DNA from: a virus
Strand: one strand, 5' to 3'
IMG/VR virus record: IMGVR_UViG_3300031772_001484
Coordinates: 1 to 48,117 of that record
DNA length: 48,117 nucleotides
Shown here: piece by piece, positions 8,583-42,014 of the stretch
How positions within the stretch are numbered: position 1 is the first letter of the stretch
Layout: every line of letters begins with the position of its first letter
Notes under the pieces: model-generated
The model's database searches: none
The model's input: the letters and a program-made list of their open reading frames with translations, nothing else
Told to the model about the DNA's origin: nothing
Made by a program: the position numbers and the translations under genes

Positions 8583-10373
8583 ATGGAAAATAACAATCAA
8601 AGTTCTACAGTTTGGCAAAGGTTATCCAAAACTTTCGGTCCGGATTCAACATTGGGATTGGGTCAACCTGACTATAAGTTAGATAAGAAAGAAATATTAA
8701 AAACGACAGATAAGGCCGAATACGAAAAAGCTAAATTACAGAATCAACAATCGCTCTACCTAAGTTCAAATTGGGCTAAGGTCGAGAACAATCTTTATAC
8801 TCAGGCGGTTTATTACGAACCAACAAGATTAGCAGCATTTTATGATTTCGAAAGTATGGAATACACTCCAGAAATCTCCGCAGCATTAGATATATATGCC
8901 GAAGAATCAACAACACCAAATCAAGATGGGTATGTTCTTCAGGTATATTCAGAATCAAAAAGAATTAAAAGTATTTTAGTTGATTTATTCGTAAATAATT
9001 TAGACGTAAACACCAACTTACCAATGTGGATTAGGAATATGTGTAAGTATGGTGATAATTTCGTTTATTTAAAATTAGACCATGAAAAGGGTGTCACTGG
9101 TTGTCTGCAACTACCTAACATTGAAATTGAAAGATTAGAGAGGGGTATGGAAGATAGAACATTTAATGTAACTCCAGATGAAAATCAAAAAGCGTTAAGA
9201 TTTACGTGGAAAGTTAAAAATGTTGATTTTAACACTTGGGAAGTCGCTCACTTCAGATTATTGGGTGATGATAGAAAACTTCCTTATGGGACATCTATGT
9301 TGGAGAAAGCAAGACGTATTTGGAAACAATTGGTTTTGGCCGAAGATGCAATGTTAATTTATAGAACATCAAGAGCACCTGAAAGACGAGTATTTAAAGT
9401 TTTTGTTGGTAATATGGATGATAAAGATGTTGAGGCCTACGTTCAAAGGGTTGCAAACAAATTTAAAAGGGATCAAGTGGTTGATAATAAAACGGGTAAT
9501 GTAGATCTAAGATTCAACCAAATGGCGGTAGATCAAGATTATTTTATTCCTGTTAGAGACGCAACACAAGCCAACCCAATCGATACTTTAGCAGGAGCTC
9601 AAAACTTATCTGAAATCGCCGATATTGAATATATTCAAAAGAAATTGGTAACGGCATTAAGAATACCTAAAGCTTATTTAGGGTTTGAGGAGGCTCTTGG
9701 AGATGGTAAAAACTTATCATTGTTGGATATTCGTTTCGCAAGAACAATTAACAGGATTCAAAAATCGGTAATTGCTGAATTAAATAAAATCGCAATTATT
9801 CACCTATTCTTAATGGGTTTTGAGGATGAATTACAAAACTTTACCTTAGGACTTACTAATCCATCTAAACAAGCCGATTTATTAATGATTGATGTTTGGA
9901 AAGAAAAAGTGACATTATATAAGGATATGGTTGCGGAAATTCCAAAATCAATTCAAGCTACTTCGGCAACATGGGCTAAGAAACATATATTCGGATTCTC
10001 TGATGAGGAAATTAAGTTGGAGTTACAACAAGTTAGAATGGAAAGAGCGGTTTCTGCCGAACTTGATAATACGGCAACAATTATAACTAAAACTGGGTTA
10101 TTTGATACTGTGGATAGGTTATATAAACCACCAGCATCCGGATCAACAGAATCTCCAGCACCTGGAGCACCTGAAGCTGGAGGGGCACCACCACCTGATG
10201 CGGGAGGTCCGCCACCTCCACCAGACGCAGGTCCACCAATTCCGGAATCAACTCTTAATAGTAAATTAAATATTCTTACCGAAAATTCTGAGGACGAATT
10301 TTTGGATTTCGATAAAATGAATAACTCTTTAGGGTCTATTGAAAAAGAATTATCTAAATTATTACGAGATTAA
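8583..10373 (+). CDS. gp20: Portal protein (T4 gp20-like)
   Basis: This 596-residue protein would form the dodecameric ring through which DNA enters and leaves the head. It follows the T4 portal pattern: the helical wing with EYTPEISAALDIYAEES, the segment GTSMLEKARRIWKQLVLAEDAMLIYR, then RAPERRVFKVFVGN and the stem/crown region GDGKNLSLLDIRFARTINRIQ. An extra Pro/Gly-rich tail of about 45 residues precedes a short acidic C-terminus, and (I/L)-x-E sites (IPE-S, LTE-N) within it could be trimmed by the prohead protease. Length is comparable to T4 gp20 (524) plus this tail. Confidence 0.93.
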   Translation: MENNNQSSTVWQRLSKTFGPDSTLGLGQPDYKLDKKEILKTTDKAEYEKAKLQNQQSLYLSSNWAKVENNLYTQAVYYEPTRLAAFYDFESMEYTPEISAALDIYAEESTTPNQDGYVLQVYSESKRIKSILVDLFVNNLDVNTNLPMWIRNMCKYGDNFVYLKLDHEKGVTGCLQLPNIEIERLERGMEDRTFNVTPDENQKALRFTWKVKNVDFNTWEVAHFRLLGDDRKLPYGTSMLEKARRIWKQLVLAEDAMLIYRTSRAPERRVFKVFVGNMDDKDVEAYVQRVANKFKRDQVVDNKTGNVDLRFNQMAVDQDYFIPVRDATQANPIDTLAGAQNLSEIADIEYIQKKLVTALRIPKAYLGFEEALGDGKNLSLLDIRFARTINRIQKSVIAELNKIAIIHLFLMGFEDELQNFTLGLTNPSKQADLLMIDVWKEKVTLYKDMVAEIPKSIQATSATWAKKHIFGFSDEEIKLELQQVRMERAVSAELDNTATIITKTGLFDTVDRLYKPPASGSTESPAPGAPEAGGAPPPDAGGPPPPPDAGPPIPESTLNSKLNILTENSEDEFLDFDKMNNSLGSIEKELSKLLRD

Positions 10374-10397: not shown

Positions 10398-11114
10398 ATG
10401 AATTTCGGAGAATTAAAATCAAAAATAGAGGTCTGTTTGTCAGAATCTTATAAGAAGAATAACTTAAAGAAAGATCTTTTCGTATTTAACGAACTGGTCT
10501 TGAAGAATAAAAATATTTCAAAAATATTCTTTCTTTATGATGAATTGTCTAAAAACAAGGGATTGTCTGAGTCAATTGCAAATGAATACATTAATGGGTC
10601 TATAACGGCTTACGAAAATACTGTTAACAAAATATCGTTAAAAGAGATTAAAGAATTAAAGTATTGGATTGGTCACATTATTTGTGAAAATGAATATAAA
10701 AATATTGATAATTTATTTTCAACAAACTTTTTAGTTTTAGAAAATAAAATTAAAAGTAAAAAACTTATTTCTGAAAACTTAAGACAAACAGAAAAAGAAA
10801 TAAAAGATGTAATTAATGTTCCTTTAAAGTCGATGATTAATGTGGCAAATAAAACGGTAAAAAATTTTATTTCTAGCCTGAACGAGTCTGAACAAAAAGA
10901 ATTAAATAAAATATTATCCACACCAAAAAATATTTTGGTTAAAAAATATGACAAAATTAAAGATGATGTTAAGGAAAAATTGGGAGATAGAAGACTAACA
11001 GAATCTGACGACGAAACTGTAAACACTATTGATAAAGTTTTAGATAGATTACAAACAGAATCTTTTAATGAACTTAATCTTTATAAGTTGATTAAGTTAT
11101 CAGACTCTCTTTAA
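10398..11114 (+). CDS. Putative prohead core protein
   Basis: This 238-residue protein is highly charged and almost entirely helical, with no recognised domain. The N-terminus MNFGELKSKIEVCLSE-S ends in an (I/L)-x-E site typical of T4 prohead-protease targets, and further sites occur at LISE-N, LNE-S and LTE-S. It lies between portal and protease, where T4 has the small core genes 67 and 68, so a core or internal head protein is likely. Its end overlaps the convergent bS21 gene by 15 bases. Confidence 0.6.
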   Translation: MNFGELKSKIEVCLSESYKKNNLKKDLFVFNELVLKNKNISKIFFLYDELSKNKGLSESIANEYINGSITAYENTVNKISLKEIKELKYWIGHIICENEYKNIDNLFSTNFLVLENKIKSKKLISENLRQTEKEIKDVINVPLKSMINVANKTVKNFISSLNESEQKELNKILSTPKNILVKKYDKIKDDVKEKLGDRRLTESDDETVNTIDKVLDRLQTESFNELNLYKLIKLSDSL

Positions 11115-11282
11115 TTTTTGGACATAAATTGCTTTTTGAATCTCCGATCTTCTCTTAATAGATTTTTTGGTAAATTCTTTCCCATTAAATAATTTCGCAT
11201 TTTGTTTTGTCCTTATTACTTTTCCTTTAAGTTCTTTTAGGGATTTCTCAATATTTCCTTTTTTTACTACTACAATTAACAT
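11100..11282 (-). CDS. rpsU: Ribosomal protein bS21
   Basis: This 60-residue basic protein aligns along its whole length with bacterial bS21: MLIVVVKKGNIEKSLKELK at the N-terminus and the diagnostic KKSIKRRSEIQKAIYVQKL near the C-terminus. bS21 sits by the 3' end of 16S rRNA on the 30S platform and takes part in mRNA recruitment. Phage-encoded bS21 is known from uncultivated and some cultivated phages. The gene stands alone on minus inside the plus-strand head block, with its own TATTTATA motif 18 bases upstream. The leader has a weak purine stretch AAGAG 8 bases before the ATG, which is more Shine-Dalgarno-like than most leaders in this window. It probably adapts host ribosomes to phage mRNA; this is inferred. 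Confidence 0.93.
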   Translation of the reverse strand: MLIVVVKKGNIEKSLKELKGKVIRTKQNAKLFNGKEFTKKSIKRRSEIQKAIYVQKLKRV

Positions 11283-11851: not shown

Positions 11852-12583
11852 ATGGAAGAATATAAAATATTAGGTCCTAGAGATTCAGGTAAGAAAGGAA
11901 TTCTTATTGAATATGATGCTGGATACATCAACCCAAAAGAAAGAAGAAATTTAGATGCCATCAACGAAAATAGAGATATGTTGGATCATTCTAAACCATT
12001 TGAGTTTTATGCTGTTCTTCAAAAATACGACACCCCAAATAGAAATGGTCGTATATACCCTGAAAGAATATTAAAAAGAGAGTCGGAGAATTATAAAAAG
12101 ATGATAGAAAAAGGAACGTCTCTTTCTGAGTTAAATCACCCTGAGTCATCTTTAATTGATTTAGACAGAGCATCACACCTTATTACAGAGATATGGTGGG
12201 AGGGTCCTGTTTTATTGGGTAAATTAAAGTTGCTTACAAGTCCAGGTTTTCACGAAAGAGGAATTGTCTCTACAAAAGGAGATTTAGCTGCAAACTTTTT
12301 ACGTCAGGGGGTTACATTAGGAATATCCTCTCGTGGTGTTGGGTCTCTAAAAAAAGTTGGAGAACAAAATGAAGTTCAGGATGACTTTGAACTTATTTGT
12401 TTTGATCTAGTATCTTCTCCATCCACACCAGGGGCTTATTTATTCTCAGATAAAAACGATAGAATGAAATATGAGGAGAACTTAGACGAGGAGAAAAAAA
12501 TGTCAGTAGAAAGAAATGTTGGGGAATCAGGAAACAAATCACTTGACTTAATGAAAAGATTAACCCATTATTTGGATAAATAA
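11852..12583 (+). CDS. gp21: Prohead maturation protease (T4 gp21-like)
   Basis: This 243-residue serine protease of the T4 gp21 type degrades the scaffold and trims head proteins at (I/L)-x-E sites. The core begins with FEFYAVLQKYDTPNRNGRIYP. The expected catalytic histidine lies in LNHPES (H96) and the catalytic serine in GISSRGVGS (S159 or S160). The following segment FELICFDLVSSPSTPGAYL is typical of the family. Length is close to T4 gp21 (212). It is followed by a short DUF4494-like gene and then the scaffold. Confidence 0.92.
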   Translation: MEEYKILGPRDSGKKGILIEYDAGYINPKERRNLDAINENRDMLDHSKPFEFYAVLQKYDTPNRNGRIYPERILKRESENYKKMIEKGTSLSELNHPESSLIDLDRASHLITEIWWEGPVLLGKLKLLTSPGFHERGIVSTKGDLAANFLRQGVTLGISSRGVGSLKKVGEQNEVQDDFELICFDLVSSPSTPGAYLFSDKNDRMKYEENLDEEKKMSVERNVGESGNKSLDLMKRLTHYLDK

Positions 12584-12931: not shown

Positions 12932-14668
12932 ATGGAAAAAAAACAAAATGTGGTAGAAGACGCTCTATTTCAAATTCGTAATTTGGAAGAGACTCTACAA
13001 GAAAATGCAAAAGGAATACTTCAATCTACAATGAAAGAAGAAATCAGACAATTAGTAAAAGAATCTCTTAGGGAACAAGATGAAGAGGGGATTGAACCAT
13101 TAACAGGTGGAGAAGCCGAACTTGATGCTGAGACAGAAGTTGAAGACGATGACATCGATGATGACATGGAATATGACGAAATGGATGACACGGAAGATGA
13201 CGAAATGGAATTTGACGATGATGCCGATGTTGATGATGAAGAAACTATTGATTTGACAAGTGCGTCAGATGAAGAAGTATTAAAGGTTTTCAAAGCTATG
13301 GGAGATGAAGATGGAATCATCGTGAAAAAAGAAGGTGGTAATATTCACCTTAAAGATGGTGATAATGATTATATGATCCAATTAGGAGAATCTTATATAG
13401 ACGATGGTCAAGAAGAAAATGAATTTAAACCAACTGACCTTGAAGAAGAAATAGTCTATGAAATTGAAATGGACGAACAAGATGATTTAAACCTTGAAGA
13501 AGAAATAGTCTATGAAATTGAAATGGATGAACAAGATGATTTAAACCCTGAAGGAGAAATTCAAATGGATGAAGAATACGACGAATTCGAATTTGAAACT
13601 CCTGTGAGAGATAGATTCAGATCTCGTATGGAAGATAACATGGAAGATGACATGGCAGATAGATTCAGATCTCATAAAGGTAGATTTGAAACCCCTATAA
13701 GAGATAGAATCAGATCTCGTATGGAAGATAACATGGAAGATGACATGGCAGATAGATTCAGATCTCGTAGATATAGAGATATTGAAGATGACATGGCAGA
13801 AGGTGTTGATCCTGAAATGGTGGAATACAATATGTCTAACCTTGATCTTGGTGAAGAAGATGAAATGAGTATGAGTGATTTAAACTCAGTTATGGAAGCC
13901 GTTAAAAAAGCTATGAAACCGAAAGGAATTGGAATGGGAAATGCTTCTAAATTCAAATATGGTAAAAAACCTAACATGAGTGGAGGGTTTAACGAAAAAA
14001 GAAAAGAAGGACCTAAATCTGTTGGTACAGGTAAAGCTAGATTTGAATACAAAGAAGAACATGAATATGGTGGTAACTCACACGATTACAAACGTAAGGA
14101 TGTTAAGGGTGTTGAGAAAAAAACCGGAGTCGTGAAAGGTCATTTTAAAGATTATGAAAGTAAGAAATCTGAAACTAAAGAATCCGCGAGAACTTTAGGT
14201 AATGGTAGTAGAAATTATCCGGAAAGAAAATCTATACCTAAAATGAGAGTAAGACCAACTAATGAAGGTGTTTCAAATGAAGTGAATTTGTTAAAAGAAA
14301 AAAATAACGAGTACAGACAAGCTCTTGATATTTTTAGAACAAAACTTAATGAAGTTGCAACATTTAATTCAAACTTGGCTTATGCGACAAGACTATTTAC
14401 TGAACACTCAACAACTAAACAAGAAAAAATAAATATTCTTAGAAGATTTGACAATGTCGATACTTTGAAGGAATCAAAAAGTCTGTATAGGTCAATAAAG
14501 GATGAGTTATCATCTGGATCTAAATCAGAAGAAAGATTAACCGAATCAATTGAAAGAACTGTTAACAGAACCGCATCTACGGGATCGTCAACTAATCTAA
14601 TTGAATCAAAAACGTATGAAAATCCACAATTCTTAAGAATGAAGGATTTGATGACAAAAATAAAATAA
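12932..14668 (+). CDS. Scaffold / prohead core protein (gp22-like position)
   Basis: This 578-residue protein lies directly before the major capsid gene, the place of T4 gene 22. A helical N-terminus (1-60) leads into long Asp/Glu-rich tracts, two in-frame internal duplications (an 18-residue acidic unit, and a 31-residue unit with RSRMEDNMEDDMADRFRS), a Gly/Lys-rich basic middle and a coiled-coil-like C-terminus with NEVNLLKEKNNEYRQALD. Several (I/L)-x-E sites, for example LTE-S and LIE-S near the end, fit degradation by the gp21-type protease. It is much longer than T4 gp22 (269), mainly through the acidic repeats. Scaffold assignment rests on position and composition. Confidence 0.78.
   Translation: MEKKQNVVEDALFQIRNLEETLQENAKGILQSTMKEEIRQLVKESLREQDEEGIEPLTGGEAELDAETEVEDDDIDDDMEYDEMDDTEDDEMEFDDDADVDDEETIDLTSASDEEVLKVFKAMGDEDGIIVKKEGGNIHLKDGDNDYMIQLGESYIDDGQEENEFKPTDLEEEIVYEIEMDEQDDLNLEEEIVYEIEMDEQDDLNPEGEIQMDEEYDEFEFETPVRDRFRSRMEDNMEDDMADRFRSHKGRFETPIRDRIRSRMEDNMEDDMADRFRSRRYRDIEDDMAEGVDPEMVEYNMSNLDLGEEDEMSMSDLNSVMEAVKKAMKPKGIGMGNASKFKYGKKPNMSGGFNEKRKEGPKSVGTGKARFEYKEEHEYGGNSHDYKRKDVKGVEKKTGVVKGHFKDYESKKSETKESARTLGNGSRNYPERKSIPKMRVRPTNEGVSNEVNLLKEKNNEYRQALDIFRTKLNEVATFNSNLAYATRLFTEHSTTKQEKINILRRFDNVDTLKESKSLYRSIKDELSSGSKSEERLTESIERTVNRTASTGSSTNLIESKTYENPQFLRMKDLMTKIK
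13438..13545 (+). repeat. 54-bp tandem duplication in the scaffold gene
   Basis: Two nearly identical 54-bp units start at 13438 and 13492, encoding an 18-residue acidic repeat (EEEIVYEIEMDEQDDLN type). The reading frame is kept. Confidence 0.95.
13592..13770 (+). repeat. 93-bp tandem duplication in the scaffold gene
   Basis: Units start at 13592 and 13685 and encode a 31-residue repeat with alternating Arg-rich and Met/Asp/Glu-rich parts. The copies differ by a few bases, more so at their 3' ends. Confidence 0.93.
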
Positions 14669-14701: not shown

Positions 14702-16588
14702 ATGGGAGCATTATTAGAATCAGGTCTTGTTGGTAACATAGGGTTAAAACACCTTAAAGTTATCAAAGAAGACACTATTAACAAATGGAACAAATTAGGG
14801 TTCCTTGATGGACTTAAAGGTCATCTAAAAGAAAATATGGCTCAATTATATGAGAATCAAGCGTCACATTTGATTAACGAAGCAACTGGAGAAGGTTCTA
14901 ACGGAGCATTCGAAACTGTTGTTTTCCCAATCGTAAGACGTGTATTCTCTAAATTGTTAGCTAACGACATCGTATCAGTACAAGCAATGAACTTACCAAT
15001 TGGTAAATTGTTCTACTTCGTACCTAAAATCCAAGGATATCAAAATGAATATCAAGGACCAGATGCGACAGGTGGTATTCATTATTCTCCAGTTGGTGCA
15101 CCGAATGGACCTGCTAATGGAGCTGGATATGAGCCAACAGGACCATACGCTTACAAGAAAAACCTTTATGATTTATTCTACGAAGGAAATGAGGCAGGAA
15201 TGGATCCTGCAGGATTGTTTGATTACTCTAAAGGTAAGTGGACCGCAGTTACTGCAACTACAACAGTTCAAGCATGGGCTGGTTCAGCACTTGTTGACGC
15301 AACTATCAACGGAGGTACTCCTGCAAATGGAACAGAAATTCCAGCAGGTAACATAAGAAAAGTTCTTATGAAAATGTGTGGTTTCGCAAATTCTGGAGCT
15401 GGTAAATTAATCGGACCTGATGGTAACGAAATGGATAGTGAGGCATTTTTGTCTGACTTGAGAATATTCGCATCTACAGGATTATCCGCAGCTACAACAC
15501 CTTGTAATGTTCTTACTGGTAGCACGGGACAATACATTCCTCTATTATTTAGATGTGTTACTCAAATATACGGTAAAGGTCTTGTTAAATATGGTGGTCA
15601 ATCGAGTACTACATTCGCAAACACTAGTACTCAACCTAACACCGCAGGTAATGGTGGTTCTTACTACGATATCTGTGACACAGATGGTTGTATCTATTTA
15701 GAAGTAGATTTATCTTGTCCAGTATGTGCTGATTGTGACTCAACATCTTTAGATGGTTACACAGGTACTACTATATTCTCAGGTGGATCTGGAGATTCAT
15801 TTACAGCATTCTTTAGACGATATGCTAACTTAGAATTCGAAGACGAAATTGGTGAGGTTTCTTTTGATTTAGAATCAGTAACTGTTTCTGTAACTGAAAG
15901 AAAACTAAGAGCACAATGGTCTCCTGAATTAGCTCAAGACGTTGCGGCATTCCACAACATCGACGCTGAAGCTGAATTGACAGCATTGTTATCTGAACAA
16001 GTAGCAGCTGAAATCGACCGTGAGATCCTTCGTGACTTACGTAAAGGTGCGGCATGGAACTTACGTTGGGATTACAACGGATGGAGAAGAATTTCTCAAA
16101 CAACATCTTACACTCAGAAAGACTGGAACCAAACATTAATTACAGCAATCAATCAGTTGTCTGCACAAATTCACAAATCAACTTTGAGAGGTGGTGCTAA
16201 CTGGATCGTTGTTTCTTCTGAGGTTTCTGCTATCTTTGACGATTTAGAATACTTCCACGTATCTAACGCGGCTCCTGAGCAAGATCAGTATAACATGGGT
16301 ATTGAAAGAGTTGGTACTCTTGCAGGACGTTACCAAGTTTATCGTGATCCTTACTTCCCATCAAACCAAGTTTTGATTGGACACAAAGGAACATCATTGT
16401 TAGACACAGGTTACATCTACGCACCGTATGTACCTCTACAATTAACACCTACAATGTACAATCCGTTCAACTTTACTCCGATCAAAGGAATAATGACGAG
16501 ATACGCGAAAAAAATGGTAAATAATCGCTTTTATGGCCGCATTACCGTTGATGGTGTTAGAACATTCGATTTAAGAGAATTGAGATAA
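14702..16588 (+). CDS. gp23: Major capsid protein (T4 gp23-like)
   Basis: This 628-residue protein would be the HK97-fold shell subunit. The N-terminal propeptide is charged and helical, and the site LINE-ATGEG (E60/A61) matches the T4 gp23 cleavage at residue 65. After it come AFETVVFPIVRRVF and, in the C-terminal half, FRRYANLEFEDEIGEVSFDLESVTV, LRAQWSPELAQDVAAFHNIDAEAEL and MTRYAKKMVNNRFYG, all typical of gp23. It is about 100 residues longer than T4 gp23. The middle (about residues 320-350) contains a cysteine cluster with CPVCADC that may be part of an insertion domain. It lies 33 bases after the scaffold and ends before a strong terminator. Confidence 0.95.
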   Translation: MGALLESGLVGNIGLKHLKVIKEDTINKWNKLGFLDGLKGHLKENMAQLYENQASHLINEATGEGSNGAFETVVFPIVRRVFSKLLANDIVSVQAMNLPIGKLFYFVPKIQGYQNEYQGPDATGGIHYSPVGAPNGPANGAGYEPTGPYAYKKNLYDLFYEGNEAGMDPAGLFDYSKGKWTAVTATTTVQAWAGSALVDATINGGTPANGTEIPAGNIRKVLMKMCGFANSGAGKLIGPDGNEMDSEAFLSDLRIFASTGLSAATTPCNVLTGSTGQYIPLLFRCVTQIYGKGLVKYGGQSSTTFANTSTQPNTAGNGGSYYDICDTDGCIYLEVDLSCPVCADCDSTSLDGYTGTTIFSGGSGDSFTAFFRRYANLEFEDEIGEVSFDLESVTVSVTERKLRAQWSPELAQDVAAFHNIDAEAELTALLSEQVAAEIDREILRDLRKGAAWNLRWDYNGWRRISQTTSYTQKDWNQTLITAINQLSAQIHKSTLRGGANWIVVSSEVSAIFDDLEYFHVSNAAPEQDQYNMGIERVGTLAGRYQVYRDPYFPSNQVLIGHKGTSLLDTGYIYAPYVPLQLTPTMYNPFNFTPIKGIMTRYAKKMVNNRFYGRITVDGVRTFDLRELR

Positions 16589-16693: not shown

Positions 16694-17377
16694 ATGAAGA
16701 AATATATCCCATCAGAAGAAGAAATTAAAACTATCCTTAAGATGTATAATAAAGATTTCATTGGTAGTCAAACAATTTCGGAAAAAATAGGATTAAATAA
16801 ACAACAAGTGTTAAGAATACTTAAAGAAAATGGAGTTAAATTAGGTCCATCCGGTAGACGAAATATTGGTGGTAAAAAAGTTTCTGATAAAAAATGGAGA
16901 GACTCTAATAAAGAGTATATGTCTAATAAATCCAAAACTTGGTACGAACAAAACAAAGAACATCGTAAAGAATACATTAAAGAATATCATAAAAACAATA
17001 TTGATAAGATTAGAAAGACAAAACGTGATTACGAAAGAAATCGTAAAGCGAGAGACCCCCTCTATAAATTAATCTCTAATTTTAGAACTGCGATATATCA
17101 GGTATTAAAGGAGAGTAATGTGGAAAAGAACAAACACTATTTTGATATACTACAATACACGCCTGAACAACTAATAACACATTTAGAGAATAAATTTACA
17201 GATAAAATGACGTGGGACAATTACGGTGAGTGGCATGTAGATCATAAATTACCTATAACTCATTTTAATATCTCTGAGATGGGGGATAGTGAATTTATAA
17301 AATGTTGGTCCTTAGATAACCTACAACCAATGTGGGGTGATGAAAACATTAAAAAATCTAATAAATTACTTGATTAA
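16694..17377 (+). CDS. HNH homing endonuclease, free-standing
   Basis: This 227-residue protein has an N-terminal helix-turn-helix region (about 15-45, with SQTISEKIGLNKQQVLRILKENG cut at its core as SEKIGLNKQQVLRIL), a long Lys/Arg-rich linker and a C-terminal HNH domain. In the latter, EWHVDHKLPITHFN supplies the histidines and NLQPMWGDENIKKSNK the Asn/His-side residues. Such enzymes cut related genomes lacking the gene and so spread themselves. It has its own promoter-like motif after the capsid terminator, so it is a stand-alone insertion beside a conserved target gene. It overlaps the convergent gene at 17366 by 12 bases. Confidence 0.88.
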   Translation: MKKYIPSEEEIKTILKMYNKDFIGSQTISEKIGLNKQQVLRILKENGVKLGPSGRRNIGGKKVSDKKWRDSNKEYMSNKSKTWYEQNKEHRKEYIKEYHKNNIDKIRKTKRDYERNRKARDPLYKLISNFRTAIYQVLKESNVEKNKHYFDILQYTPEQLITHLENKFTDKMTWDNYGEWHVDHKLPITHFNISEMGDSEFIKCWSLDNLQPMWGDENIKKSNKLLD

Positions 17378-17610: not shown

Positions 17611-18492
17611 ATGGATAGACTTAGTAAAATTATAAAAAAAGTAATTATAGAGACCACTAGCGATAGCCGTGGATCTAGAGGGTCGTATGTTACACCATTG
17701 CTACCTGGGTATAGGGAATTTGAAAAAAATCAAATGGCACCATTTACTGAATATGTAACTGATTGGGATGACGCCTCTTTAGATCATGATAGTTTAGATG
17801 GTAAAATGTCCGCAGATTCTAAAACCATACAAAGAAAAGAAAAAAAAGCTGAAAAAATTCAAAAATTTATAAAAAATAATCCTGACAAATTTGCTTGGTC
17901 TGATGATGCGGGAATTATGAATTCATTACCATTTCATAATACAGATGCCAAACCTATAAAAAATTATGACCCAAAAAAAACAACGGTAAGTTTAGGTGGG
18001 GTTGTAAAACAAATAACAAAAAAAATTAAAGAATCAATTAACGATTATGATTTAAATTACCCACCATTAAATCAAAATAGGGTTGAATTTTTAGAAAAAG
18101 TCCCATTTAATAAATGGATTGAGATTTCTGACAAAGGAACTATAAATGAAGATCTTGCCGTTTGGTTTGGTAAAAAGAATAAACCTAAGGGATCTTCCCA
18201 ACCAAAAGGACCTTGGGTTAACATTTGTAGTAAAGTTGACGGTAAACATCCCCCTTGTGGACGACAAGATACCTCTAAAGGTTCATACCCTAAATGTAGG
18301 GCGGCTGGAGTTGCTGGTAAAATGAGTGATTCTGCAAAAAGATCTGCTTGTCAACAAAAAAGGTCTGCTGAGAAAAAAGACACACAAACAGGAAAAGGAC
18401 AAAAACCAATAATGACATCATATAAAACAAAAAAGGAATCCGTAGATTCCTTAGTTGATAATATTTTATTTGAAATTAGAAACTCGGTCTAA
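17611..18492 (+). CDS. Putative internal head protein with DUF5872-like C-terminus
   Basis: This 293-residue protein starts at 17611; the earlier in-frame ATG at 17533 would overlap the divergent neighbour and put the promoter motif inside the gene. The first 14 residues MDRLSKIIKKVIIE form an amphipathic leader ending in an (I/L)-x-E site and align position by position with the leader of the protein encoded at 18966-19427. This looks like a T4-type capsid-targeting sequence. A Lys-rich middle is followed by a cysteine-bearing basic domain (about 200-275) with WVNICSKVDGKHPPCGR, YPKCRAA, SACQQKRS and Lys/Gly-rich tail, resembling DUF5872. It may be packaged and ejected with DNA; that is inferred. 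Confidence 0.72.
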   Translation: MDRLSKIIKKVIIETTSDSRGSRGSYVTPLLPGYREFEKNQMAPFTEYVTDWDDASLDHDSLDGKMSADSKTIQRKEKKAEKIQKFIKNNPDKFAWSDDAGIMNSLPFHNTDAKPIKNYDPKKTTVSLGGVVKQITKKIKESINDYDLNYPPLNQNRVEFLEKVPFNKWIEISDKGTINEDLAVWFGKKNKPKGSSQPKGPWVNICSKVDGKHPPCGRQDTSKGSYPKCRAAGVAGKMSDSAKRSACQQKRSAEKKDTQTGKGQKPIMTSYKTKKESVDSLVDNILFEIRNSV

Positions 18493-18894
18493 GATATTAT
18501 GTAGAGAGTTAGTAATTTGTGAATTAATCTCACCCTCATAATTAAGTCTTCTCTTATCTGCCTCAAGATCAAAAATATATGTTAATCTTTCCCAATCCCT
18601 ATCATGTAGTTTAACATTATAATTATAAACGTGATTAGTTATTTCAACTCTACGATCTGTCATTGTTATGAAAATTTTCATATCGTCATTTTTAAGATAA
18701 CGTTTGTCAGACATTGGGGCTATCATAAATTCAGTATTTTTATGTTGAATTATTTTAAGACATATTTTAAAACATGTCTTTTCATATGATAGGGTTTCAT
18801 CTTGATAAGTTGGTATAATACTTGAAGATTTTTTTGACCAAATATAAAATTTAAGTTTTAATCTACTAAAAAATCTTTTTATTTTGTTTTCCAT
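18466..18894 (-). CDS. Conserved-looking protein of unknown function
   Basis: This 142-residue protein has a basic aromatic N-terminus (FFSRLKLKFYIWSKK) that could touch membrane or nucleic acid, a beta-rich middle (FMIAPMSDKRYLKNDDMKIFIT, cut here as two strands flanking KRYLKNDD) and a charged helical end with DRDWERLTYIFDLEADKRR. No family is recognised. Its 3' end overlaps the convergent gene at 17611-18492 by 27 bases. No late-promoter motif lies upstream, though the region has TTTG-rich sequence. Confidence 0.65.
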   Translation of the reverse strand: MENKIKRFFSRLKLKFYIWSKKSSSIIPTYQDETLSYEKTCFKICLKIIQHKNTEFMIAPMSDKRYLKNDDMKIFITMTDRRVEITNHVYNYNVKLHDRDWERLTYIFDLEADKRRLNYEGEINSQITNSLHNILDRVSNFK

Positions 18895-18965
18895 ATTTGT
18901 ATAAAGTTTATGTATCTACAAATATAGTGATATTATTTGAATAAAAAAATATTTTTAAAAAAAAA

Positions 18966-19427
18966 TTAACAATAAGCTCCAGAACAATGTCTTTTACCGT
19001 CAAGACCTTTAATCTTACCTTTACATACTTGAACAGCGTGGCCATTTGAATATGCGGAGGGGTACACGTCATATTTTGCCTTTGCTGAGGCTTTACCCCT
19101 TGCACAAAGAGGAGTTCCTGTTTTTTTACGACCTTCCATCATGACCATGTCTTCATCATCCATGTTCATCTCCATATTATCTCTTTCAGTCTCATTCATT
19201 AAAAAATCAAAAACTTGATCCATGTTATTTTTTGATTCTGAAATATGATCTTGTGCCCAATCATGTCCATTATCTAAAATAGATTCAACCATGTCTTGGT
19301 CCATATCTAATAATATTTCACATTGTCTTTTCATTTGTTCTAAATTAGAAAAGAACATATATCTTTGAGATTTTTCTTCGTGTGTTTCTCTAATAACTTT
19401 TTTTATAATTATATCTAAATCTCTCAT
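18966..19427 (-). CDS. Putative internal head protein with Cys/Lys-rich C-terminal motif
   Basis: This 153-residue protein begins MRDLDIIIKKVIRE-T, a leader that matches the one at 17611 and ends at the same residue number (E14) in an (I/L)-x-E site. The acidic Met-rich middle (DNMEMNMDDEDMVMMEG) precedes a basic C-terminal domain with GTPLCARGKASAKAKYDVYP, VQVCKGKIKG and a final CSGAYC. The (K/R)AKxKxxVYPSAY...VCKGK motif recurs in T4-like phage proteins. The gene begins 4 bases after the stop of 19432-20061 and is probably cotranscribed with it. A DNA-binding protein packaged in the head is a reasonable guess. Confidence 0.72.
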   Translation of the reverse strand: MRDLDIIIKKVIRETHEEKSQRYMFFSNLEQMKRQCEILLDMDQDMVESILDNGHDWAQDHISESKNNMDQVFDFLMNETERDNMEMNMDDEDMVMMEGRKKTGTPLCARGKASAKAKYDVYPSAYSNGHAVQVCKGKIKGLDGKRHCSGAYC

Positions 19428-41633: not shown

Positions 41634-42014
41634 TCAAAAGACTGCGTTTATGAGAACCCTTGACATACTTTTATCCCCATTTGGGTTATAGTTTGGTCTT
41701 GGAGTATCGAATATTTCAGTTGTTGGCCTAATAAATTGGGTTTTATCAATTCTAAACATTCTCCATCCTGGTAATGGTTTCTCACCCTTATACGCTGTGT
41801 GAGATGCCCCCTCTTTATCCCAAGCTCGTAAAACAGGATTCCCACTTTTACTATAACCAAAACATACAGGTTCAATAACCCTTAACCCTTTACCCCCTGG
41901 TTCATCACCATCGTAATAAATTGCGCACACTCTTCTTTGCTTTATTGCATCAATAACTTGGTCTTTTGATGCTACTTCTAATATAAGACTATTAAGAGTG
42001 TTGTAAAGTTTCAT
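41634..42014 (-). CDS. WYL-like domain protein with capsid-targeting-like leader
   Basis: This 126-residue protein starts MKLYNTLNSLILE-VA, ending in an (I/L)-x-E site at residue 13, like the leaders of the proteins at 17611 and 18966. The remainder resembles a WYL domain: VIDAIKQRRVCAIYYDGDE, LRVIEPVCFGYSKSGNPVLRAW and PGWRMFRIDKTQFIRPT (W/R-x-FR-x-D near the end). WYL domains sense or bind nucleic-acid-derived ligands and occur in phage-defence regulators. A packaged, ejected WYL protein is an attractive possibility but is inferred only. Its start overlaps the upstream stop (TAATG). Confidence 0.65.
   Translation of the reverse strand: MKLYNTLNSLILEVASKDQVIDAIKQRRVCAIYYDGDEPGGKGLRVIEPVCFGYSKSGNPVLRAWDKEGASHTAYKGEKPLPGWRMFRIDKTQFIRPTTEIFDTPRPNYNPNGDKSMSRVLINAVF

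Follow-up and report, generated by a model that had tools for sequence, protein, structure and literature searches.

A T4-like head module with two convergent genes downstream of the capsid gene

The window (the whole stretch of DNA analysed, 48,117 nucleotides) is a 48 kb IMG/VR virus fragment that carries a T4-like head module, followed by the genes of two proteins, A and B (Table 1). Searches of the scaffold-like protein against Pfam and PHROG profiles gave no convincing family match. Its S21 ORF puts the window phage near the bS21-encoding Bacteroidetes huge phages, which, in the accessible part of their description, are freshwater phages of up to 331 kb with genes for the large terminase, portal, reverse-strand bS21, prohead protease and capsid protein (PMC9723584). 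Because the gene context of the window is that of these phages, its host is probably a Bacteroidetes species. At the site that matches the HNH-endonuclease-like ORF of the window, two of the large related contigs described below (G001 and G003) carry different genes.

Table 1. Features of the window, with the leader-bearing proteins of phage Immuto; arrows mark predicted cuts
Feature	Position	Strand	Basis or remark
Portal-position protein	8583-10373		Position
Ribosomal protein S21 ORF, precedes the prohead protease gene	11100-11282	-	PF01165 5.5e-6, 26.4 bits, just under the curated cut-off of 27
Prohead protease, peptidase S77 (T4 gp21 family)	11852..12583	+	PF03420 4.7e-22; phrog_207 4e-41
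Scaffold-like protein (gp22 position, precedes the capsid gene)	12932..14668	+	Position, orthologues
Leader-like motif inside the scaffold, MKEEIRQLVKESLRE↓Q, residues 34-48	13031..13075	+	PSSM match, 13.3 bits
Major capsid protein, gp23 type	14702..16588	+	phrog_138 1.1e-67
Predicted capsid-protein cut site LINE↓A, residues 57-60	14870..14881	+	Conserved in G001-G005; aligned with T4 gp23 FLTE↓A
HNH-endonuclease-like ORF between the capsid gene and A	16694-17377	+	Judged by eye; Pfam gave no confident match
Protein A, 293 aa: a leader, then a variable middle part and a basic C-terminal domain with cysteines	17611..18492	+	
Leader of A, MDRLSKIIKKVIIE, then T	17611..17652	+	Predicted prohead-protease cut after E14 (17652/17653)
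C-terminal domain of A	18214..18384	+	phrog_23735 at residues 202-258; stands alone, leaderless, in small Pelagibacter phage HTVC023P (gp52)
Protein B, 153 aa: a leader, then a helical middle part and a basic C-terminal domain with cysteines	18966..19427	-	
C-terminal domain of B, phrog_27331	19008..19109	-	Stands alone, leaderless, in small phages
Middle domain of B, predicted helices 21-82	19182..19367	-	Structure model (pLDDT 58-74 in this part); the 642 kb phage LR756502 has a homologue
Leader of B, MRDLDIIIKKVIRE, then T	19386..19427	-	Predicted cut after E14
Another candidate leader, MKLYNTLNSLILE↓VAS, on a protein with weak likeness to WYL	41634..42014	-	Similar starts in G001, G002, G004; WYL E 0.008, below cut-off
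Immuto leader-bearing proteins	NC_055915: 1803-2318, 103806-104354, 117631-118632, 118632-118931		

A preliminary description of this DNA had proposed that A and B share a 14-residue leader ending at the same residue in an (I/L)-x-E site, and that both carry basic, cysteine-bearing C-terminal domains. Both observations hold. The two leaders fit M-x-x-L-x-x-I-I-K-K-V-I-x-E, with an identical IIKKVI core and Glu as residue 14, and no ORF start in the window other than those of A and B fits the leader search pattern. The C-terminal 60 residues have a pI of 9.78 in A and 9.74 in B. Cysteines stand at residues 206, 216, 229 and 247 of A and at 108, 135, 148 and 153 of B, which has one more at residue 36. 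As whole mature proteins, A is basic (pI 9.4) and B is acidic (5.2). Pfam profiles gave no match for A, and a PDB sequence search gave no credible match. The structure models of A and B are poor (mean pLDDT 48-50); in the low-confidence model of B, the leader forms a single helix from residue 2 to 14, ending at E14.

The junction is kept where the leader is not

Relatives of A and B were gathered from 160 IMG/VR loci using queries from which the leader had been removed, giving 81 for A and 78 for B. Among the A relatives, residue 14 is Glu in 81/81 and residue 12 is Ile (56%) or Leu (44%), so that (I/L)-x-E is present in every one; any residue may stand at 13, and Ala follows the Glu in 79%. 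All 78 B relatives match a hydrophobic-x-E leader pattern, and the Glu is invariant in the 69 of them without a gap in that alignment column. Eighteen A relatives do not match the leader pattern, several of them with N-termini that are very short or quite different, and divergent N-termini of this family still keep the tripeptide: MGKKINE↓A, MSKRINE↓A, MNQQEKFFLLNE↓V and MYNKKNFYISE↓A.

In T4, gp21 cuts after L/I-x-E and gp23 loses a propeptide of 65 residues; processing of the IPIII leader is governed by residues 8 and 10, that is, P3 and P1 (PMC9026906). At the corresponding place, the capsid proteins of the window phage and five related contigs have (H/F)LINE↓A(T/S/A). An S77 protease, the presumed cutter of the leaders, is encoded in the window and in each of five large related contigs (G001-G005, 272-304 kb). 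Of 20 viral contigs found by the class II leader pattern (see below), 15 carry S77 and the same 15 carry a gp23-type capsid gene; the other five have no S77 match, four of them have no capsid match and one a marginal one, and these five may be fragments.

The leader might instead be an uncut docking helix for the scaffold, the portal, a membrane assembly site or some other phage structure, with the conserved Glu lying in the docking face. Such a role would suit the predicted amphipathic helix, a low-confidence prediction, and the similar motif within the scaffold, whose orthologues in G001-G005 keep L-x-E↓Q with a shifted position in G002 and G003. However, family A keeps just (I/L)-x-E and a small next residue; MGKKINE↓A is almost helix-free, and the same tripeptide is found at the capsid-protein site. 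Given that (I/L)-x-E is kept in this family although the leaders around it have been replaced, it behaves as a protease site and not as a docking helix, and we regard the docking reading as improbable. As T4 internal proteins co-purify with the scaffold protein gp22 (PMC9026906), the motif common to scaffold and leaders is suggestive, though no more than that.

Similar leaders stand on many otherwise unrelated proteins

Across the 160 related loci, a strict leader pattern fits at 107 of 1490 start methionines but at only 3 of 6610 methionines inside proteins, so the likeness of the A and B leaders goes beyond chance. The same plain pattern, applied to four large related contigs, gives 32/1404 starts against 2/4491 interior methionines (Fisher p = 2.9e-18). 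The preliminary description had suggested a genome-wide search for such leaders; run on G001-G005 with a position matrix (PSSM) anchored on the Glu, it was positive, with 42, 30, 21, 24 and 21 tagged ORFs, respectively. In total, 138 of 1727 starts are tagged against 10 of 5180 interior methionines; the p value of 8.6e-72 is only indicative and partly circular, since the matrix was trained on four of the same contigs. Together with A, B and the scaffold of the window, the tagged set comprises 141 proteins in 82 families with no detectable similarity downstream of the leader.

Further leader classes have the forms MKIIITESQY.., ..EEEKxRIL.. and MNLQENIxRIKxMMG... A broad count over all classes gives 45-75 tagged ORFs per contig, or 14-20%, which is an upper estimate because the looser classes III and IV include false positives (IV: 14/5180 interior). 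Beyond these contigs, the PSSM finds two proteins in Mel-JY01, two in phage Immuto and 13, with a variant leader, in the 484 kb phage LR756508; it tags none in T4 or in Rhodothermus phage RM378. A search of INPHARED with the class II leader gave no match.

Shared 5' ends could also arise at the level of DNA, by gene duplication, a recombination hot spot or a translation leader, and the tagged genes do lie in islands, with 18 adjacent pairs in G001 (4.5 expected) and 12 in G002 (2.5 expected). However, class II leaders (RLTESDLTRIVRRVIKE) have 68% mutual identity, against 7% just downstream, while their codons are nearly randomised (sharing of 0.59 versus 0.50 expected); thus selection acts on the protein. 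Moreover, A and B lie on opposite strands and are unrelated after the leader, and orthologues keep [ILV]-x-E with different DNA. A DNA-level origin was rejected on the codon data, and we give it almost no credence.

The leaders are also exchanged between orthologues. Of 30 orthologues missed by the PSSM, 26 have [ILV]-x-E no more than 6 residues from the junction; drawing the same positions from other proteins gives 7.9 +/- 2.4 (maximum 16 in 300 draws). A DHH-like family has five leaders, MKNLIRRIIKEETTKLLNE, MVMRKNLILE, MKIIITESQYKQLIKE, MKKGILVE and MKMVITESQYKRLLNE, all of which end in (I/L)-x-E and are followed by SG(I/L)R; its homologue in LR756502 starts MLRKYGQFINE, then EVGF. Some other LR756502 homologues start in a T4-like manner, MKNFSKFLEE and MDILRFDQFIRE, a design close to the MKTYQEFIAE of T4. 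In the cultured Flavobacterium phage Immuto (NC_055915; host Flavobacterium sp. LMO8), at least four proteins (MENFDLKKFLVE-type) start with the same or a close MENFDLKKFLVENKLTxNSxLLxE; a literature search for virion proteomics of this phage found none among the papers listed.

The tagged set is rich in orphans and is not generally basic

Pfam searches gave 14 families for 114 representative tagged proteins versus 108 for 112 untagged proteins of G001. The tag therefore avoids replication and nucleotide enzymes and stands mostly on orphans. The domains that were found, on which NCBIfam agrees, are lysozymes, M23 peptidases, LysM, ferritin/rubrerythrin, PAP2, AAT and surface-type domains. A PADLOC scan of the 114 tagged proteins returned three marginal matches only. 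PHROG matches to tape-measure proteins were judged to be cross-matches of peptidase or lysozyme domains, because the one M23 protein checked has 245 aa. Examples of tagged phage lysozyme, M23 peptidase and ferritin-domain proteins lie at L242:14488-15309, L216:15278-16015 and L165:9844-10446, and would be unexpected cargo if the tag means packaging. The tagged lysozymes and M23 peptidases could act elsewhere than as head cargo.

The median mature pI of the tagged set is 5.4, and basic cargo was rejected as a general rule. Given this median, the earlier picture of basic cargo bound to DNA suits A but, in B, the C-terminus alone; it does not extend to B as a whole or to the tagged set.

A variant leader is found on chromosomal genes of Bacteroidales

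In 257 Gb of bacterial genomes, the class II DNA pattern has 24 matches, about 18 of them leader-like and mostly in Bacteroidales. In viral contigs the same pattern is found in at least 120 stretches; of 135 unique matches, 117 lie at an N-terminus and have the Glu. The bacterial matches include a variant leader (RLTESDLHRIVKESV; MNKKLIRLTESDLHRIVKESV..) on small chromosomal genes of Prevotella, Segatella and further Bacteroidales, next to an IS1595-type transposase or a remnant of one; 11 of the loci also encode such a transposase or a piece of one, the family being assigned by eye. The variant leader in this setting occurs at L434, L444, L447, L449, L450, L453 and further Bacteroidales loci, as well as on the IMG/VR contig L362.

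On this evidence, the leader could be taken for a general signal, for localisation or regulation, that belongs to Bacteroidota mobile DNA and has nothing to do with capsids. We consider this reading more doubtful still than that of a docking helix, as the small number of leader-like matches in bacterial DNA stands against the many in viral stretches, and two viral contigs with the same variant leader (L354 and L381) also carry the S77 protease and a gp23-type capsid gene. Furthermore, the C-terminal domains of A and B occur in three small phages where S77 was not detected, and in the two read in sequence, P-SCSP2 and HTVC023P, the proteins start right at the domain, without a leader. Most simply, the chromosomal loci may mean that phages and their hosts exchange tagged genes.

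A and B as putative internal head proteins

Capsid targeting and cleavage, as the preliminary description had proposed, find strong support in the sequence: the shared leader with its invariant junction, the matching capsid-protein site, the scaffold motif, the S77 gene, the many tagged proteins and the swapping of leaders. We therein see good grounds to believe that the A and B leaders are T4-like capsid-targeting propeptides removed by the prohead protease. A and B would be internal head proteins whose N-terminal 14 residues form the propeptide; the amphipathic leader helix would join the scaffold core during prohead assembly, with the scaffold as putative docking partner, and the phage S77 protease would then cut after (I/L)-x-E. 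Mature A and B would remain in the head with the DNA and probably be delivered at infection, ejection into the host being likely by analogy. In this lineage of huge T4-like myoviruses with predicted Bacteroidota hosts, the same kind of leader would mark a large, fast-changing set of cargo. Against this explanation stand the T4-unlike sequence of the leader, the chromosomal variant leader beside IS1595-type transposases, the non-basic character of the set and its lysozymes and M23 peptidases; the poor structure models and the partly circular PSSM statistics also count against it.

A and B themselves may be head proteins that belong to the core or associate with the DNA, and not effectors. If so, they would be cut proteins of the head structure, core or DNA-condensing, that stay in the virion. 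They are adjacent, convergent and downstream of the capsid gene in 5/5 large contigs; their C-terminal domains are neighbouring small basic genes in HTVC023P (gp51 for B and gp52 for A; L455), and the B domain sits between the scaffold and capsid genes in the Prochlorococcus phage P-SCSP2 (00019, L454). Both are also conserved, unlike most tagged families. Nothing direct speaks against it, and in T4 the internal proteins form part of the core and are also ejected (PMC9026906). This is a serious possibility, if short of a probable one; targeting and cleavage are common to it and to the propeptide explanation, and ejection is the sole difference.

Tentatively, the propeptide explanation can be carried further. 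In huge T4-like Bacteroidota phages, up to 14-20% of the genes (the 45-75 per contig of the broad count) might encode packaged cargo, marked by several interchangeable leader classes with nothing but the prohead-protease site in common. Such cargo, including lysozyme-like and M23 enzymes, a ferritin-like protein and many orphans, would be a pre-made arsenal delivered before phage gene expression, and IS1595-type elements would carry some tagged genes back and forth between phages and hosts.

For most huge-phage genes, no function is known. If a readable N-terminal tag marks the contents of the head, the sequence of an uncultured phage is enough to list the proteins likely to enter the host first, and the proteins listed, if this is true, are candidates for anti-defence and host take-over factors; here each genome has tens of them, and almost none belongs to a known family. 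The three internal proteins of T4 are all inhibitors of type IV restriction enzymes (PMC12373910).

Comparison with known systems

The bS21-encoding Bacteroidetes huge phages are alike in gene context, and leaders and internal proteins go unmentioned in the accessible part of their description (PMC9723584). Phage Immuto, of 160 kb, has S77 and its own leader family on at least four proteins, with a different leader sequence.

In SPN3US and phiKZ, the head contains many proteins, some with N-terminal propeptides cut after Glu; two paralogues share an identical 15-residue N-terminus, and eight proteins are cut in SPN3US (PMC5694885). Their cut motif is A-x-E or S-x-E and their propeptides are mostly long (>100 residues), whereas here P3 is Ile or Leu in all 81 A relatives. 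In phage P1, the N-terminal 30 residues of DarB suffice to bring a reporter into the capsid (PMC9024508); that signal is described for one protein and has no known link to the present leader or cut motif.

The closest parallel is T4, to whose capsid-targeting sequences (CTS) the preliminary description had likened the leaders. The T4 proteins IPI, IPII, IPIII and Alt likewise carry a short N-terminal leader ending in (I/L)-x-E on otherwise unrelated proteins; the IP leaders, of 10-19 residues, target the core, and that of Alt has 7 residues (PMC9026906). T-even internal proteins have only the CTS in common (PMC3012670). Both systems combine a gp21-type protease, a scaffold gene and a gp23-type capsid protein with fast-changing cargo, and the FLTE↓A of the T4 capsid protein matches the LINE↓A of the window type. 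The likeness holds for the design and the cut site and fails for the leader sequence itself, MKTYQEFIAE↓A in T4 versus IIKKVIRE or RLTESDLTRIVRRVIKE here; T4 leaders do not match the leader PSSM, and a T4-like class is seen instead in the LR756502 homologues. Of the small basic proteins typical of T4, A is an example, unlike B and the median of the set. A search of open-access text found no description of this leader family. T4 has three or four tagged proteins; the present phages have tens per genome in several leader classes, and the family is best read as the known T4 design and cut motif, greatly expanded.
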